64,000 bases of DNA from Ferrimicrobium sp. (lineage in GTDB: Bacteria; Actinomycetota; Acidimicrobiia; Acidimicrobiales; Acidimicrobiaceae), in the NCBI RefSeq assembly GCF_027319265.1, contig NZ_DAHVNP010000076.1, forward strand, positions 1-64,000. Reading direction: 5' to 3'. Of the stretch, positions 8,085-15,501 are shown one piece after another. The notes under the pieces are model-generated. The model did not search any database. It saw only the letters and a list, made by a program, of their open reading frames with translations, and was not told the origin of the DNA. Position numbers and translations under genes: made by a program. Every line of letters begins with the position of its first letter. Positions within the stretch are counted from its first letter, which is position 1.

Positions 8085-10418
8085 GTGAACGAGGTGGCCA
8101 ATACCGCGAAGCGACCCGGAACCATTGCTTTCGTCGACGAAGATGCAAGCGTTGGAACAAGCACAGAGACGCTGATCAGTCGGCTACCTGGGACCCAGGC
8201 GAGGCTGCACCAACTCGATCAATGGCTCCTCACGCGAGCCGATGTTCGCAGCACCCATCGAGAACGGGTCAGAGCGGCGCTCCTCGAACTCGATCGATTC
8301 AATGTCACGGTTGCAACCCTCGCCCAAGCCGGTTATCACGGCAAGAAGATGGCCAGCCTCCTCAGCGATTTTCAGAATCACTTTCCTTCGGTGACCCGCG
8401 ATGAGTCGATCGTCAACGGGCCGCACTGGACACGAGCAAGACTAGGTTTCGATCTCCTGTCGGAGGCCGAAATCGCCGACCTGGTATCGGCTGGAGCGGA
8501 CCATGCCCTCCTCACAATAGCCAAGTGGCGCTCACCTGACCTTGATCCTGCAAGCGCGAGAGTGATCAAAGGCCTCACCCGAGACGGTTTTGATCTCCAT
8601 GGTCACTTCGATGACCACCCACAGGTCACCAGCGCCACGCAGATCTACCATTTCACGGATCCCGATCAAGAGGTGTCGTGGACGCTCGCCGAGATTCTGG
8701 CTCGGCTCCACACCGGAGCCTTCCGGATGCAAGATCTTGTCATCTACCTCCCCAACAGCCGGCACTACCACCGCGCCCTTCGGCACTACAGCCGCGCCTA
8801 TCGCCTTCCTCTCATCCTCCACCAGCAACGCCAGGCATCCCAAACAACTCTCGGTCGCCACCTCCTCGAACTCTTGGACCTTCTCCAGGTCGGTCATGTG
8901 GTTGGATCAGCCCACCGAAGTCGGCTACTCGCCAACCTCATCGCCGACCAAGCACCACCCGACACCTGGGATCGTTTGCTCGAATGGCTTCTGGAGCTGC
9001 TCGACAAGATGATGGCTGATCCAAATGCGAGTGCGCAGATCAACTCCATGGATCAAACGCTGCGAGCGGAGCTCTTCGCCCAACTCCAACCGTCTCTGCC
9101 AACTACCGCGTCGGTGGACACCTTGTCCCAGTTCCTCGACGCTGTTCGTGACCGTCTTGGCGCCATGACACTCGCGGAGAAAGCAGGAACAGAGGGGATT
9201 ACGGTGGCCAACACCGGTCAGCCCATCGGCCAGCATCGAATCGTCTTTGTCCTGGGTGGTGTCGATCGCCATCTTCCCCCTGAACTCTCCAACAACCCGC
9301 TCCTCCCGCTTGCAATACGCGACCGTGTCGATGGGCTGCCCACCACTGCAGAACTCGTCCAGTGGCAACGTGCACAAGCGATCGGCATGTTCCATGCCGC
9401 CACCGAAGAGCTCATCATCACCGCCCCCCAGCGGATCGAGAATGAACGCACCCTTGCAAGTCTGCTCCTCGAAGAACTTGGGCTGCAACCCACAAGTGCA
9501 CCACCCCCCTATGGTGTGCTCCCCATGGAACGGGTGGCGTTTGACACCACCCATCCGGAGATCAAAGTCCGACGCGACCACGCGCTAGCGATCGAGCGAT
9601 CACGTATTCGTAACGTCGAATCCTCAGACTTCTCTGGCAAGGTTGGTCCGCTTGCCTTTGGACAACTCTCAGCGACCCAGCTCGAGGATCTCGGCCAGTG
9701 CCCATTCCGCTGGTTTGTCAAACACCGCCTCCGTGTTCGGGCGCCGGACGATGAGACAAATGAACCCGACCCTCGAACACTCGGGCAGCTCGTGCATACG
9801 CTCCTTGAGACGTTGGTCACGACGCCCGAGCCAGTACCTCGTCAAGTCCTTGAGGAGCTGCTTGAACAACACGCCCCAGTAACGTTGACGAAGTACACAC
9901 CTAACTGGTTGCCGATTCGGGCCGAGATCGCCAAGCAACTCGAGACGCTGGTCGCGAATCCAGAGTTTTCGCTGGGTGCTTTGGGGACCCAGGTCGAACT
10001 CGCGCTCAATGGCTATTGGCATGAGATCCCGGTACAAGGCCGTATCGACCGCCTCGATCACGTCGGACCAAACGACTACGCGATCATCGATTATAAGTTT
10101 TCAAAGTCAGTACCAACGGGCATCCAAGACGCCGAGGGTCGTCTCAAGGTCGATGTACAGCTCTCTGTCTATACCCAACTAGTGGAGGGCCAAGGCAAGC
10201 ACGTCGTCGGTGCGAAGTACTGCCTAGTGAAACGTGGCACATTCGTCAAAGCGCCAGGGATCACCAAGGGCGAGGAACCCGCAAAGGAGGCAGCGGCCCG
10301 CCTGCTCACTCGTCTCGAGAATGGTGATTTTGCGGTTGCTCCTGACATCGATCGCAAGGCGTGCACCTACTGCGACTTCGCACAGACCTGTCGCATCGCG
10401 AGCCGAAATGCTGGCTAA
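8085..10418 (+). CDS. AddB/AdnA-like subunit with active PD-(D/E)XK nuclease domain and Fe-S cysteines
   Basis: 777 aa. The N-terminal half resembles an inactivated UvrD-type helicase: no Walker A, only a degenerate DEDASVGTSTET. The C-terminal nuclease domain looks intact: CPFRWF with C539, GQLVHTLLE with H571, GRIDRLD with D655, IIDYKFSK with D669 and K671, then VQLSVYTQLV. Cysteines C539, C760, C763 and C769 match the iron-sulfur staple of AddB-type nucleases. It would process double-strand breaks for RecA together with the helicase encoded next. It is shorter than typical AddB or AdnA (usually over 1000 aa). The start is GTG with a -10 box 7 bases before it, suggesting a leaderless mRNA. 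Confidence 0.82.
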   Translation: MNEVANTAKRPGTIAFVDEDASVGTSTETLISRLPGTQARLHQLDQWLLTRADVRSTHRERVRAALLELDRFNVTVATLAQAGYHGKKMASLLSDFQNHFPSVTRDESIVNGPHWTRARLGFDLLSEAEIADLVSAGADHALLTIAKWRSPDLDPASARVIKGLTRDGFDLHGHFDDHPQVTSATQIYHFTDPDQEVSWTLAEILARLHTGAFRMQDLVIYLPNSRHYHRALRHYSRAYRLPLILHQQRQASQTTLGRHLLELLDLLQVGHVVGSAHRSRLLANLIADQAPPDTWDRLLEWLLELLDKMMADPNASAQINSMDQTLRAELFAQLQPSLPTTASVDTLSQFLDAVRDRLGAMTLAEKAGTEGITVANTGQPIGQHRIVFVLGGVDRHLPPELSNNPLLPLAIRDRVDGLPTTAELVQWQRAQAIGMFHAATEELIITAPQRIENERTLASLLLEELGLQPTSAPPPYGVLPMERVAFDTTHPEIKVRRDHALAIERSRIRNVESSDFSGKVGPLAFGQLSATQLEDLGQCPFRWFVKHRLRVRAPDDETNEPDPRTLGQLVHTLLETLVTTPEPVPRQVLEELLEQHAPVTLTKYTPNWLPIRAEIAKQLETLVANPEFSLGALGTQVELALNGYWHEIPVQGRIDRLDHVGPNDYAIIDYKFSKSVPTGIQDAEGRLKVDVQLSVYTQLVEGQGKHVVGAKYCLVKRGTFVKAPGITKGEEPAKEAAARLLTRLENGDFAVAPDIDRKACTYCDFAQTCRIASRNAG

Positions 10419-10502
10419 GCTCCAACCTCTTTGGCGTATCACTTCGCGACACAGGATCGACCAAAACGAAGTCGCCACCTCCTGCCGTCCACCGAGGCGA
10501 CC

Positions 10503-13500
10503 ATGCAGCTGAGCGATCGTCAACGCCAAGCGGTCACCAGCGGTGGGGACGTCGCGATCTCAGCTGGAGCTGGGACCGGAAAAACCCAGACGATGGCTGC
10601 CCGCTATCTCGCTCATGTTGAAGCGGGGTTACGACCTCTCTCTATCGTCGCGGTCACCTTCACTGTCCGAGCTGCAGCTGAACTTCGCCATCGTATCCTG
10701 AGCCAAATGCGCGAACGATACCGTGCCAACGACCCAAGGGTGCTGGAGGTCGAGGTTGCACCGATCGGTACCATTGACTCCCTCTGTCAACACCTCTGCA
10801 CCGAGTTTCCGGTCGAATCCGAACTCGACTTCGACTTCGAGGTCATTGACGAGACCAGTTACCGCCAGCTACTCTCCCTTGAGCTGCCCCACCTCCTCGA
10901 ACGGATCCCTCCAACCACCTACGAACTGATCGACTACTCCACCTTAAAGTCCTTCGTCACGATTTGTCTCAAAGATCTTGAGCGCTTCCGGAGTGCTGGC
11001 GCCATGGACATCGCCACGATCAAAGCGGCCATCCACGACGCCCAACAAGCGGCCATCACCACCGGGCCCTGGGCAGAACTTGAGGCAGCGTTAGCGCAGC
11101 ACCAGGCTCTGCGCGAAACCGACCTCATCGAACAGACCAGACGCACAGCGCTACGAGGGTTGCAGCTGTTACGCCAAGGAGATCATGAAGGCTGGATAGT
11201 ACTCTCGGCGTTGAATCGCCGAGGTGGCTCGGCTAAAAATTGGCTTCCAGGAGAATACGACCAGGTCAAAGAAGATCTCAGGATCCTCCAGGAACAGATC
11301 AAGGGACTGCCCGACTACGTCCGTATCGGTTGGAATGAGATCGACGACCGCAACCAAGTCATCGTAGAGGCCGTCCGTGCAGCTGTAGAGATCGTGGCGA
11401 CCCAGCTCGACGAGATCAAGGCAGCGCAGGGCATCGTCGACTTTGCTGACCTGGAGACGCATGCGCTCAAAGCGCTCAATAACGAGTTTGTCCGTGAGGA
11501 ACTCACGGATCGGTGGCGAGCTATTCTGGTCGACGAAGTACAAGATATCAGTCCGCTCCAGTACCAGCTACTCGAACGCCTTAGCCGTCATGCCACCCTC
11601 TCCGCAGTCGGTGACGCCAAACAGTCGCTCTATCGTTTCCGGGGCGCGGACCCGGAGCTCTTTGCGCAACAGATTGCCTTGAGCCAGGAGCATGTAACGC
11701 TCGACGAGAACTACCGTACCGTCCCTGCGCTCGTAGAGCTCGTCAACAACACCTTTGCGACGCTCATTCCAGGCTATGAGGCGCTGCGCCCCATGCGCAC
11801 CACCGAGTACGCACGCCCCCCGGTGGAAGTCATGGTGGTTGATGAGACGAGCGATGCCACCATGGCCGAGCGACGGCGAGTCCTCTCCGAACGTATCGGC
11901 GATCGAATTCTCAATCTACTCGAAGAGCCCTTTGTGATCGCCGACCCAACCACCGGTAACCTTCGCCAGGTCAAACCCCAAGACATCGCCATCATCTCCG
12001 CCAGTTGGGATATGTTGGACCGAGTCGCCGAGGAGCTCCAGCGGCTCCAGCTGCCCGCGAATATCGTCGGTGGAGGTCGGCTCCTCGCTAGCCAGGAGGC
12101 GGCGGACGTCGTGACGATGCTCTCGTTCTGCGCGAACCCTCATGAGAATCTCTCCTGCCTCGCACTCATGCGTTCCCCAATGGTTGGGTTGAGCGACGTG
12201 GAACTTGCGGAGTTAGGTGGAGCAAAGGAACGATCGAGTTCGTGGTTCAGTTTTCTCCTTGACCACCTCCGAGATGACCCGCGTATCGAACCGATCGCGC
12301 GCCTTCCCTTCTCTCCCACCAGTCTGTCCCCAAGCGACCAGCTTGCGCTGGTCGGCGACATCCTTCTCTACCCCGAGATTCTTGCCGGCTTAAACCATCC
12401 GCAGCGACGTCGCGCCGATTGGATTGCTCTGCTTGACCTCGTCGACGAGCGTGCGAGTAAGGGTTTTGATACCAACGATATCATCCGCTACCTGCGTTTT
12501 GCCATCCGCGATGGTGCGCGAATCGCCCGCCCACCCGTCGAAGCAGAGGATTCGATCTCGCTGGTGACGGTACACGCCTCTAAGGGTTTGGAATGGCCGA
12601 TCACGATCGTGATCGACCTCGATCGAAGCCCTCGCCCAGCACCTTCGCTCGCCATCGACCCGCATCGTGGCATCGCCTTCAAGCTCCAAGACGAACACTC
12701 TGGCCATCTCTCGTGGATTAACGAACTCCAACGCGAGGAGGAGTTGCTCGAAGAACGTCGACGTTGGTACGTCGCCACTACACGGGCTCGTGACCACCTG
12801 ATCCTTGCCCTCGCTTCCCGAGATCGGGTCAGCACACTCCTCGACCAGATCGGTGAATACGCCGAGATCACGCAACTGCCCACGAATCTGGCTCCCCCTG
12901 TCCCTCGAGTCGTCGCGGGCACCGAGGCTCCACGCTATCGCCCCTCAAGCGTCGATCTGTCCGCCCCCTCACGACACGTACACCAGACCCTGGCAAGTCG
13001 GGATCTCACAGACTTTCGTCGCTGTCCGCTCCTGTTGGCGACGACAGAGACACCAATGGGAAGGAGCGATCGACTCAGGCGACTCCTACTCGAGCGCGCG
13101 ACCGAGGGACTACCCCTTCTCAGCAGCGATCTTGACTGGTTGCCGACTTCGCGGGCTGAGGAACTGATCCAACAGGTCGGCTACTACCAGGAACTTCTCA
13201 CCTCCCATCTGCGGACCGCTCCAGCACTACGCTACGGAACGTCGACGGTCTGCTCCTGGTCTCTCCAGTGGGGTCCCTTTCTCTCCGACGAAGATTCGGT
13301 CATCGACCTCACCCTATCGGAGGGAGATTTGACCGGCTTGAGCCTTGCTCACGCCGAACACCCGGGACTACGAGCAGGCATCCTCTACCTCACGCAATCA
13401 CGAATCCACTGGCTCTCCTCCGCCGAGCTGGGCCAGATTGAGCGCGAACTACCATCCCTACTTCGTGAACTCTCCGAATGTCCGTGTGGACCTCGACGAG

Positions 13501-13577
13501 ACCGAGCCGCGAGCTGTCGTCATTGCCGTCAAGCGCGTACCTGTCATTGGATCCAACGAGAAGACCATAGGCTTTAA
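10503..13577 (+). CDS. UvrD/RecB-family helicase, AddA/AdnB-like, nuclease domain degenerate
   Basis: 1024 aa. The SF1A helicase motifs are complete: SAGAGTGKTQ (K27), DEVQD (344-348), AVGDAKQSLYRFRGAD, VTVHASKGLEWP and WYVATTRARDHLIL. It should unwind DNA 3' to 5' from break ends. The C-terminal 200 residues keep the frame of a RecB-like nuclease domain, with C841 in RRCPLLL and C993, C995, C1005, C1008 and C1014 near the end. I see no histidine, DxD or D/E-x-K catalytic set there. The start at 10503 is chosen because GAGG lies 5 bases upstream; an in-frame ATG at 10431 lacks this. It lies 84 bases after the nuclease gene, so both probably form one enzyme. Confidence 0.85.
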   Translation: MQLSDRQRQAVTSGGDVAISAGAGTGKTQTMAARYLAHVEAGLRPLSIVAVTFTVRAAAELRHRILSQMRERYRANDPRVLEVEVAPIGTIDSLCQHLCTEFPVESELDFDFEVIDETSYRQLLSLELPHLLERIPPTTYELIDYSTLKSFVTICLKDLERFRSAGAMDIATIKAAIHDAQQAAITTGPWAELEAALAQHQALRETDLIEQTRRTALRGLQLLRQGDHEGWIVLSALNRRGGSAKNWLPGEYDQVKEDLRILQEQIKGLPDYVRIGWNEIDDRNQVIVEAVRAAVEIVATQLDEIKAAQGIVDFADLETHALKALNNEFVREELTDRWRAILVDEVQDISPLQYQLLERLSRHATLSAVGDAKQSLYRFRGADPELFAQQIALSQEHVTLDENYRTVPALVELVNNTFATLIPGYEALRPMRTTEYARPPVEVMVVDETSDATMAERRRVLSERIGDRILNLLEEPFVIADPTTGNLRQVKPQDIAIISASWDMLDRVAEELQRLQLPANIVGGGRLLASQEAADVVTMLSFCANPHENLSCLALMRSPMVGLSDVELAELGGAKERSSSWFSFLLDHLRDDPRIEPIARLPFSPTSLSPSDQLALVGDILLYPEILAGLNHPQRRRADWIALLDLVDERASKGFDTNDIIRYLRFAIRDGARIARPPVEAEDSISLVTVHASKGLEWPITIVIDLDRSPRPAPSLAIDPHRGIAFKLQDEHSGHLSWINELQREEELLEERRRWYVATTRARDHLILALASRDRVSTLLDQIGEYAEITQLPTNLAPPVPRVVAGTEAPRYRPSSVDLSAPSRHVHQTLASRDLTDFRRCPLLLATTETPMGRSDRLRRLLLERATEGLPLLSSDLDWLPTSRAEELIQQVGYYQELLTSHLRTAPALRYGTSTVCSWSLQWGPFLSDEDSVIDLTLSEGDLTGLSLAHAEHPGLRAGILYLTQSRIHWLSSAELGQIERELPSLLRELSECPCGPRRDRAASCRHCRQARTCHWIQREDHRL
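13568..13573 (+). promoter_or_regulatory. -10 box for a leaderless transcript (gene at 13580)
   Basis: TAGGCT, 6 bases, then GTG. It lies across the 3' end of the helicase gene and would give the next gene its own transcript. Confidence 0.42.
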
Positions 13578-13579
13578 CC

Positions 13580-14119
13580 GTGTCTACCATCGATCTCGCA
13601 GGGTTCATCACGGAAGTCAAGGGGCAAGCCATCCACCACGGCTTCCATGTCCATGACGAACGTCACTTCATGGAGACCTATTCACTCCGACAGTGGTGGG
13701 AGGTCGATCTCCATCCCGAATCCGGCTGCGGATCCCCGATGGAGCTCCACCTCGCCTTGGATGTTGATCCTCGTGTGTTGCTCGCCTTCGATGACGCCTT
13801 TGCTACCGCCTCCGAGCCGAACTCGGTTCCGGATGAGTTCTTCTTCCCGTTGACCCTCACCTGGACCCTCCCCGCCGGTTCCATCGACCTTCTGAATTTG
13901 GCGCTCAACCTCGCAGGTCTCACCGGCATGTCGCTCCCTCTCGAAGTGGCGGCGACCGACAGCTACGGATCACCCGCAGCCACTCCAGAGCGAGCCATCA
14001 GCGTGACTGCCAGACGCTCCGTCTCCCTCGCCAAGATCACCGAGGGTGAGGAGGCGATTGACGACACGCTCGACCGCGCCAACGATGTCAGTCTTTTTCT
14101 TCTCAAGCTCATCGAGTGA
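13580..14119 (+). CDS. Unrecognised soluble protein
   Basis: 179 aa. I do not recognise the family. There is no signal peptide or membrane helix. The N-terminal part is His/Asp-rich (IHHGFHVHDERHFMETYS, then RQWWEVDLHPESGCGSP). The middle is a mixed sheet-like segment (MELHLALDVDPRVLLAFDD) and the C-terminus is charged and helical (EGEEAIDDTLDRANDVSLFLLKLIE). It sits 2 bases after the helicase stop and 6 bases before the ECF sigma gene, so it could belong to either transcript. A TAGGCT box 6 bases before its GTG suggests its own leaderless promoter. Base composition looks like that of its neighbours. Confidence 0.72.
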   Translation: MSTIDLAGFITEVKGQAIHHGFHVHDERHFMETYSLRQWWEVDLHPESGCGSPMELHLALDVDPRVLLAFDDAFATASEPNSVPDEFFFPLTLTWTLPAGSIDLLNLALNLAGLTGMSLPLEVAATDSYGSPAATPERAISVTARRSVSLAKITEGEEAIDDTLDRANDVSLFLLKLIE

Positions 14120-14125
14120 GTCCAG

Positions 14126-14746
14126 ATGAACAATACCTCCATCCAACCTGGCCGTCGGCGTCGAAGTAGGGTCATAGAACCACAACTACACGAAATCAGC
14201 GATGCCGCACTTGTTGTCGCAGTAGCGCGCTACAACCAAGATGCATTGGCAGAGATCTTCCGGCGGCATGGAGGTGCGGTGCACGCGCTTGCCAAGCGCG
14301 TCACGCGCGATCAAGCGCTGGCCGAGGAGGTCACCCAGGAGCTGTTTGTACGGCTCTGGAACGAACCGGAGCGCTATGACTCCGCTCGTGGCACGTTACG
14401 TACTTTCTTATTGATGCAGACTCACCGTCGATCAGTGGACGTCATTCGATCCGAAGAGGCCCGGAAGCGTCGCGAACAGAACGATACCGCGACCATCGCT
14501 GCCACCTCTTATGATATCGACCATGAGTTCGGTGACCTTGCCGATCGCGAGGCGGTGCGCGAGGCACTCCAGACCCTCCCCCAAGATGAACGCAGAGCTA
14601 TCGAACTCGCCTTTTTCCATGGGCTCACCTATCGCGAGGTCGCTCAGCGTCTCGAACAGCCTGAGGGCACCGTCAAGACGCGCATCCGATCTGGGCTCAA
14701 ACGAATGAACGATGCACTTGCACAGTGGAAGACGGTGGAGGCATGA
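14126..14746 (+). CDS. ECF-type RNA polymerase sigma factor
   Basis: 206 aa. Region 2 spans about residues 28-100 (ALAEIFRRHGGAVHALAKRV, then DQALAEEVTQELFVRLW) and region 4 about 140-195 (LPQDERRAIELAFFHGLTYR, then EVAQRLEQPEGTVKTRI with its helix-turn-helix). The type resembles SigK/RpoE-like extracytoplasmic-function factors that are released when a membrane anti-sigma is cleaved. The next gene overlaps its stop and encodes such an anti-sigma factor, which strongly supports the pairing. The stimulus is unknown. Confidence 0.92.
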   Translation: MNNTSIQPGRRRRSRVIEPQLHEISDAALVVAVARYNQDALAEIFRRHGGAVHALAKRVTRDQALAEEVTQELFVRLWNEPERYDSARGTLRTFLLMQTHRRSVDVIRSEEARKRREQNDTATIAATSYDIDHEFGDLADREAVREALQTLPQDERRAIELAFFHGLTYREVAQRLEQPEGTVKTRIRSGLKRMNDALAQWKTVEA

Positions 14747-15501
14747 TGGAACGAACCAATCCTGCAGATCAGACGGAACACCAAGACGCTGAGGAGCTAC
14801 TCGGTGCCTATATTATTGACGCAGTCGACCCAGAGGAACGCGCCACTGTTGAGGCACATCTGAGCCGTTGCGTCACCTGCCGAGGAGAGGTAGACGCCCT
14901 CCGATCAACACTCGGCATGCTTGCCAATGAGGGCGGCCCAGCACCCGCTGGCATCTGGGATCGGATCGAGGATGAGATCAATGGAAGCGGAGACGTCGTT
15001 GCCTTTCGCCCCCCCCAACGCTCGCGGCTGCGGATCCCGACCATCATTGCATCGACCGCTCTCGCTGTGGCTGCTGCCTTAACGCTCATCTTCGGCATCG
15101 CGATCCATAGCCTCCACAACCAGGTCGCGGAGCTCAGTACACAGGTCACGACGTCCGCTACGAGGGCCATCGCCACCGCTGCGCTCCTGCAGCCGGGTGC
15201 CAAGCGCTTTGCCCTCGACAACCCGCAGGGTCACACCGTGGGCAGCGTGGTTGCGCTTCGCTCAGGCGAGGTCGTCCTCACGTCATTCCTGATGCATCCA
15301 CTGGCGACAAACTCCACCTACCAAGTCTGGGCGATCGTCGATGAGAAACCGATATCGCTCGGGCTCCTTGGCAGTCATCCAACCGTCTCCGTCTTCCACA
15401 CAGGCGGCAACCACGCCTTCGAGTTTGCGATCACCGTTGAGCCGGCCAGTGGCGTGGCTCAACCGACCGGAGCACCCGTGGCAACGGCCGCCATCATCTA
15501 A
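14743..15501 (+). CDS. Zinc-finger anti-sigma factor, RskA family
   Basis: About 252 aa. The cytoplasmic N-terminus carries the zinc-binding anti-sigma motif HLSRCVTCRG (H-x3-C-x2-C). One membrane helix follows at about residues 100-125 (IPTIIASTALAVAAALTLIF). The outside part matches the RskA domain (TNSTYQVWAIVDEKPISLGLLG). It would hold the sigma factor encoded just upstream at the membrane until regulated proteolysis. The start is ATG at 14743 (ATGA overlap) or ATG at 14746; GGAGG at 14737-14741 serves either. A GTG at 14725 is less likely. Confidence 0.9.
   Translation: MMERTNPADQTEHQDAEELLGAYIIDAVDPEERATVEAHLSRCVTCRGEVDALRSTLGMLANEGGPAPAGIWDRIEDEINGSGDVVAFRPPQRSRLRIPTIIASTALAVAAALTLIFGIAIHSLHNQVAELSTQVTTSATRAIATAALLQPGAKRFALDNPQGHTVGSVVALRSGEVVLTSFLMHPLATNSTYQVWAIVDEKPISLGLLGSHPTVSVFHTGGNHAFEFAITVEPASGVAQPTGAPVATAAII

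Follow-up and report, generated by a model that had tools for sequence, protein, structure and literature searches.

The subject of this analysis is a pair of adjacent genes in a 64,000-nucleotide stretch of DNA from Ferrimicrobium sp. (contig NZ_DAHVNP010000076.1 of assembly GCF_027319265.1, positions 1 to 64,000 of the forward strand), referred to here as the window. The first gene begins with GTG and encodes P0001, a protein of 777 amino acids (aa). The second gene begins with ATG, follows in the same orientation after 84 bases and encodes P0002 (1024 aa); an alternative TTG start at 10431 would lengthen P0002 to 1048 aa. The ORF listing and the translations showed both open reading frames (ORFs) in one orientation and at the place given in an original prediction made from the DNA letters (Table 1). 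Taken as a whole, P0001 and P0002 probably constitute a diverged AddAB-type enzyme for DNA double-strand ends. The sequence comparisons support a motor subunit whose nuclease domain is catalytically incomplete yet retains cysteines, next to a motorless nuclease partner. This split pair was present in 11 of the 42 genomes sampled from the family, which belong to three genera of acid-loving bacteria and are termed the clade in the following.

Table 1. Genes, domains and cysteines of the pair, in window positions; Fe-S, iron-sulfur; SF1A, superfamily 1A.
Feature	Position	Strand	Basis
AddB-like nuclease subunit P0001	8085..10418	+	ORF, translation, AddB chains as the five best structural rows by Z
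Intact PD-(D/E)XK nuclease domain of P0001, residues 527-770	9663..10394	+	PF12705, invariant catalytic residues
C539 of P0001, first Fe-S-type cysteine	9699..9701	+	Alignment
C760, C763 and C769 of P0001, other Fe-S-type cysteines	10362..10391	+	Alignment
AddA-like helicase subunit P0002	10503..13577	+	ORF, best Foldseek match AddA 4cej_A
SF1A motor of P0002, residues 1-795	10503..12887	+	UvrD-helicase and UvrD_C (Pfam), alignment to AddA 4cei_A
Putative pseudo-nuclease domain of P0002 with Fe-S-type cysteines, residues 826-1024	12978..13574	+	Cysteines, catalytic losses, purifying selection
C841 of P0002, first conserved cysteine	13023..13025	+	Alignment
C1005, C1008 and C1014 of P0002, other conserved cysteines	13515..13544	+	Alignment

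The AddB-like and AddA-like subunits

The nuclease domain of P0001 was matched by PF12705 (PDDEXK_1) with an E-value of 1e-32 (114.5 bits against a cut-off of 22), and the same family was found in all ten P0001-type proteins. When these ten were aligned, H571, E638, D655, D669-Y-K671, Q692 and Y696 were invariant, and so were the four cysteines C539, C760, C763 and C769. Thus, the complete nuclease site and the Fe-S-type cysteines previously read from the 777-aa subunit were confirmed. The structure model of P0001, with a mean predicted local distance difference test score (pLDDT) of 74.4, matched Bacillus AddB (4cej_B) best, with a Z of 20.1, a root-mean-square deviation (rmsd) of 20.0 and 575 aligned residues. 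The alignment ran from residue 11 to 771 of the model and spanned the helicase-like N-terminus and the nuclease, i.e., the two parts that make up AddB, so that structure match, cysteines and catalytic residues place P0001 with the AddB proteins. The search with profile A6 returned AddB only, and a phmmer search of P0001 against the PDB sequences gave no match at E <= 1.

The loss of helicase motifs from the 777-aa subunit had also been pointed out in the original prediction. No Walker A pattern was indeed found in P0001, as in the AddB-like subunits generally (0/10 clade members and 0/16 controls; one further AddB-like protein, L169, does show it). Since this is the ordinary state of AddB, the loss was rejected as a novelty. 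The unusual feature of the pair lies only in the nuclease of the AddA-like subunit.

The clade differs from the AddAB enzymes of nine other genomes of the same family in the length of the AddB-like subunit, which is 750–821 aa in the clade and 976–1132 aa in those genomes. The region ahead of the nuclease in P0001 was shorter than in most of the 16 controls. Shortened AddB-like proteins were also observed in another family of the class (L041, 1981-4476, 831 aa; L042, 2923-5634, 903 aa), where they sit beside AddA proteins with intact nucleases.

P0002 was matched by the Pfam families UvrD-helicase (PF00580; E 3.3e-48) and UvrD_C, and the helicase motifs expected in the 1024-aa subunit were located at residues 22 (I), 52 (Ia), 343 (II), 370 (III), 689 (V) and 756 (VI). 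In the structure model (mean pLDDT 73.3), the motor at residues 1..795 aligned to residues 9..957 of AddA (4cei_A), with a Z of 37.8, an rmsd of 5.6 and 780 aligned residues. AddA chains occupied Foldseek ranks 1–4, the best match having an E-value of 8.1e-41, and addA_Gpos was the best NCBIfam model. Thus, structure comparison identified an SF1A motor of the AddA type. The scores of the two proteins stayed below the cut-offs of the NCBIfam models. For P0002, these were 229 bits vs. 707.65 for AddA (TIGR02785) and 186.1 vs. 696.05 for RecB (TIGR00609). P0001 reached 35.2 vs. 486.5 bits (TIGR02786) and 30.9 vs. 903.7 bits (TIGR02773) with the AddB models, and 72.3 vs. 299.6 bits with TIGR03623 (probable DNA repair protein). 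P0001 and P0002 are regarded as diverged because they lie far under the AddA, AddB and RecB cut-offs.

Catalytic residues and cysteines of the helicase subunit

The RecB-type catalytic residues His, Asp, Asp/Glu, Lys and Gln were compared between the clade and control helicase subunits. All five were present in 57 of 57 controls, whereas the full set was found in none of the 11 clade members, and neither His nor Gln occurred in any of these. The catalytic His, first Asp, Lys and Gln correspond in P0002 to R, T, T and a gap, respectively. D935 of P0002 (in VIDLT) stands in the DxK column and is kept, without the lysine, in the seven rows of the window's genus. The residue search therefore upheld the loss of nuclease residues proposed for the 1024-aa subunit, as well as its departure from AddAB and AdnAB, whose helicase subunits keep a working nuclease. 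The controls comprised 37 proteins already gathered and 20 fetched for the residue comparison; they come from similarity searches and cannot be treated as independent, L111 and L114 being near-copies and the two L116 rows an adjacent AdnAB-like pair. The helicase gene of G264 lies on two unjoined contig pieces, of which the C-terminal one was counted for cysteines and catalytic residues.

In line with these losses, P0002 had no PDDEXK_1 match. Among ten clade helicase subunits, none was matched at E <= 0.001 and one at 0.094, while 10/10 and 25/27 control helicase subunits carried the domain. In the third genus, an alignment of the C-terminal domain to active Fe-S AddA nucleases was possible; the two members of this genus diverge where the first catalytic aspartate is expected, with G-S-L-D in G275 and G-S-L-G in G274.

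The cysteines behaved differently from the catalytic residues. C841, C1005, C1008 and C1014 were kept in all 11 clade helicase subunits, in the pattern C-x163-C-x2-C-x5-C. Of the cysteine set first proposed (C841 and C993-C1014), these four were thus retained, whereas C993 and C995 vary within the clade and were dropped. In the automated catalytic alignment, two of the 11 rows had gaps at three cysteine columns; a separate cysteine alignment covers all 11. The tail C-x2-C-x5-C is common to P0001 and P0002, and Fe-S AddA nucleases have C-x2-4-C-x5-6-C. It is known that such cysteines bind a cluster in related nucleases, and those of P0002 would presumably do the same.

Compared with AddAB of Bacillus subtilis (PDB 4cej, 4cei, 3u4q), the pair has the same layout: the motor of P0002 aligns to AddA and P0001 over its full length to AddB, there is a single motor, and an Fe-S-type nuclease lies in the AddB-like subunit. 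Unlike in AddAB, the AddA-type nuclease of P0002 is without the catalytic set yet has four cysteines, so that the two active nuclease domains typical of AddAB appear not to be present in the clade. AddA proteins with Fe-S-type cysteines and an intact site were seen in other families of the phylum (L131-L136) and in Myxococcales (L110). P0002 resembles these proteins in its AddA motor and in the domain behind it, where a first cysteine is combined with a cysteine tail, and differs from them in that its catalytic residues are incomplete and theirs complete.

AdnAB of mycobacteria is also a helicase-nuclease of two subunits, each of which has a UvrD-like and a RecB-type domain. By structure, P0001 was closer to AddB (Z 20.1) than to AdnA (Z 16.0), and P0002 closer to AddA (Z 37.8) than to AdnB (Z 26.8). 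Both AdnAB nucleases are presumed to be catalytic, as the PDB titles name the mutants AdnA D934A and AdnB D1014A; by its residues, the P0001-P0002 pair seems to lack this property of a catalytic nuclease in each subunit. The nearest precedent known to us for the dead domain of P0002 is the nuclease-like domain of RecC, which is no longer catalytic and now serves as a hoop for single-stranded DNA (PMC1185551). The domain of P0002 may likewise be a nuclease domain without catalysis that guides DNA. The arrangement differs, since the dead nuclease of RecC is located on a subunit with a dead motor, and that of P0002 on the motor subunit with a nuclease as its partner. Nothing in the literature searched, by titles and the openings of abstracts, described a naturally occurring AddA whose nuclease is dead; this is not meant as a claim of priority.

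Distribution and descent of the pair

The split pair was found in all seven sampled genomes of the window's genus and in two genomes each of the second and the third genus. When 247 genomes of the class and 296 of the phylum were sampled, only the window's genome and G014 reached the end of the helicase profile among the matches listed. A frameshift or truncation artifact was rejected, as the same architecture occurs in ten other genomes. One stop is counted within the match in G262 and one within that in G014; the frames analyzed there are open to their own stop codons. Left out were the helicase of L043, which ends with its contig, the N-terminal part of the helicase in G264, the nuclease subunit of G274 (a fragment) and L173 (too short). 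The loci L105, L112, L113, L115 and L117 were also omitted, as none of their ORFs fitted the helicase pattern used. For the nuclease-subunit tree, an AddB-like ORF was obtained by pattern in 5 of the 10 newly fetched loci.

The clade was monophyletic in the helicase-domain tree (10 rows), with a Shimodaira–Hasegawa-like approximate likelihood ratio test (SH-aLRT) support of 100, and in the nuclease-subunit tree (10 rows; SH-aLRT 97), where the genera followed the same order. The helicase tree placed the clade apart from the AddA proteins of its own class, which are without Fe-S cysteines. Forcing the clade together with these was weakly rejected in the approximately unbiased (AU) test, with a p-AU of 0.025 for a quick tree and a group named post hoc. 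Vertical descent within the class is thus weakly disfavored. The helicase tree does not join the clade with the Fe-S AddA proteins either. As the tree gives no such placement, the preferred history was built on the cysteines, the C-terminal alignment of the third genus and a weak profile match: an Fe-S AddA would have become catalytically inactive ahead of the divergence of the three genera.

Proposed mechanism, alternatives and neighboring genes

In Bacillus AddAB, one motor is combined with two nucleases, that of AddA for the 3'-ended strand and that of AddB for the 5'-ended one; in the Bacillus model, Chi prevents the 3' strand from reaching the AddA nuclease (PMC4824097, PMC4027173). By analogy with AddA, P0002 would be the only motor of the pair; it would bind the DNA end, track 3'-to-5' on the 3'-ended strand and unwind the duplex. 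Its C-terminal domain is pictured as a non-cutting Fe-S fold of the RecB nuclease type, held by a cluster and most likely structural or, as in RecC, DNA-guiding. P0001, as the only nuclease of the pair, would degrade the emerging 5'-ended strand in the manner of AddB. If the AddA-type nuclease is dead, only the 5' strand would therefore be cut during unwinding, and a 3' single-stranded tail on which RecA can act would arise immediately. Canonical AddAB needs Chi to trigger the sparing of the 3' strand, whereas this pair would not. The analogy thus suggests a machine that may trim only one of the two DNA strands. We infer that P0001 and P0002 form a complex with this choice of strand and independently of Chi.

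Reduced Chi control would fit the short part of P0001 that precedes the nuclease, the region that recognizes Chi in Bacillus AddB (PMC4027173). This is only suggestive, because the short AddB-like proteins L041 and L042 also pair with intact AddA nucleases. A tentative extension is that the pair represents a natural Chi-independent resection enzyme, in which the 3'-strand nuclease has been fixed in a dead state and the Fe-S pseudo-nuclease now acts as a gate or as an iron- or redox-sensitive control of the 3' strand. If true, every DNA end in this lineage would be converted straight to a 3' tail. With the nuclease lost and the cysteines of the Fe-S scaffold kept, the pair would be a natural experiment on the need for the Chi switch and on a non-catalytic role of the cluster, and it could offer a simpler enzyme for biochemistry.

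Several observations weigh against the reading of the pair as an AddAB-type enzyme with a dead AddA nuclease. UvrD (4c2t_B) scored a Z of 40.8 for the P0002 motor, over 583 residues. Since UvrD chains score as high by Z, the AddA identity of P0002 was derived from the aligned length, the Foldseek order and the pairing with P0001. For P0002 residues 796-1024, the AlphaFold pLDDT was mostly below 50, and the structural comparison covered residues 1-795. The profile match of the P0002 C-terminus to Fe-S AddA nucleases was weak (probability 40%, E 3e-4), and its alignment with the P0001 nuclease extended over the cysteine tail only (48 columns). The PDDEXK_1 test is not decisive alone, because 2 of 27 controls failed it too. 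At the position of the DxK aspartate, nine of the 11 clade sequences carry D or E; the first Asp is retained in one row and a Lys in one, with D and K together in none. On account of these residues, an unusual active site in the C-terminal domain of P0002 is conceivable. In the helicase tree, the neighbors of the clade (L107-L109; SH-aLRT 85) are long-branched and without Fe-S-type cysteines. No experiment on any clade member was found in the literature searched.

An enzyme that cuts both strands would be the strongest competitor of single-strand trimming, if still an unlikely one. In such a RecBCD-like scheme, the one nuclease of P0001 would serve both strands, and Chi or another signal would shift the strand preference. 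That an enzyme with one nuclease can work is illustrated by RecBCD, which has one nuclease domain fewer than AddAB (PMC6452273), and P0001 resembles the RecBCD chain taken as RecC (1w36_F; Z 15.8, rmsd 21.5, 468 aligned residues). On the other hand, the nuclease of P0001 resides in an AddB-type subunit, the one described as degrading the 5' strand in Bacillus (PMC4824097), and the part that contains the Chi region in Bacillus AddB (PMC4027173) is shorter in P0001 than in most of the 16 controls.

Ongoing erosion of a functionless dead domain in P0002, tolerated by the enzyme, is improbable. The domain has diverged faster than the motor (73% vs. 84% identity between G000 and G261) and is shorter still in the second genus, as expected from erosion. 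Against this, its four cysteines are invariant, and its ratio of non-synonymous to synonymous substitution rates (dN/dS) was 0.11–0.32 over the seven pairs measured, with synonymous sites near saturation in several. For the pairs G000/G263 and G000/G261, dN/dS amounted to 0.148 and 0.136 in the dead domain, 0.123 and 0.073 in the motor, and 0.166 and 0.152 in the P0001 nuclease, respectively. These values indicate purifying selection on the dead domain.

A role of the pair as a defense or mobile-element helicase-nuclease instead of housekeeping repair is very improbable: P0002 matched Gabija GajB helicase models (E 3e-39), as UvrD-like helicases generally would, whereas the only PADLOC match of P0001 was a weak one to Cas4 (E 6e-5), the neighbors are shared across the clade, every sampled genome of the window's genus has the pair, and no other AddAB-like enzyme was found in the assembly.

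The source assembly, which is 95.9% complete, encodes RecA, and the searches run found no second AddAB-, AdnAB- or RecB-like enzyme in it. Its other P0002-like helicases are frames of 617–723 aa. PDDEXK_1 matched two of its proteins, P0001 and an open frame of 276 aa. The latter is a solo nuclease (locus L002, G000:C14:71444-72184), and P0001 also matches frames of 262–281 aa in several genomes of the order.

Two bases past the helicase gene begins the frame of a protein of 179 aa (13580-14119, + strand), which was matched by neither Pfam nor NCBIfam. Its gene directly follows the helicase gene in all nine clade loci searched that extend past it (G274 was not searched). A third subunit was considered and rejected. 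Matches to this gene occur in 129 of 198 genomes of the class, and in G169, G072, G002, G027, G107 and G075 it is separated from the AddA match, either by lying on a different contig or by a distance of more than 150 kb; it is therefore regarded as a neighbor and not as part of the system. Further downstream (14126-15501, + strand), an extracytoplasmic function (ECF) sigma factor is followed by an anti-sigma factor, and homologues of these were observed beside the pair in several clade loci.

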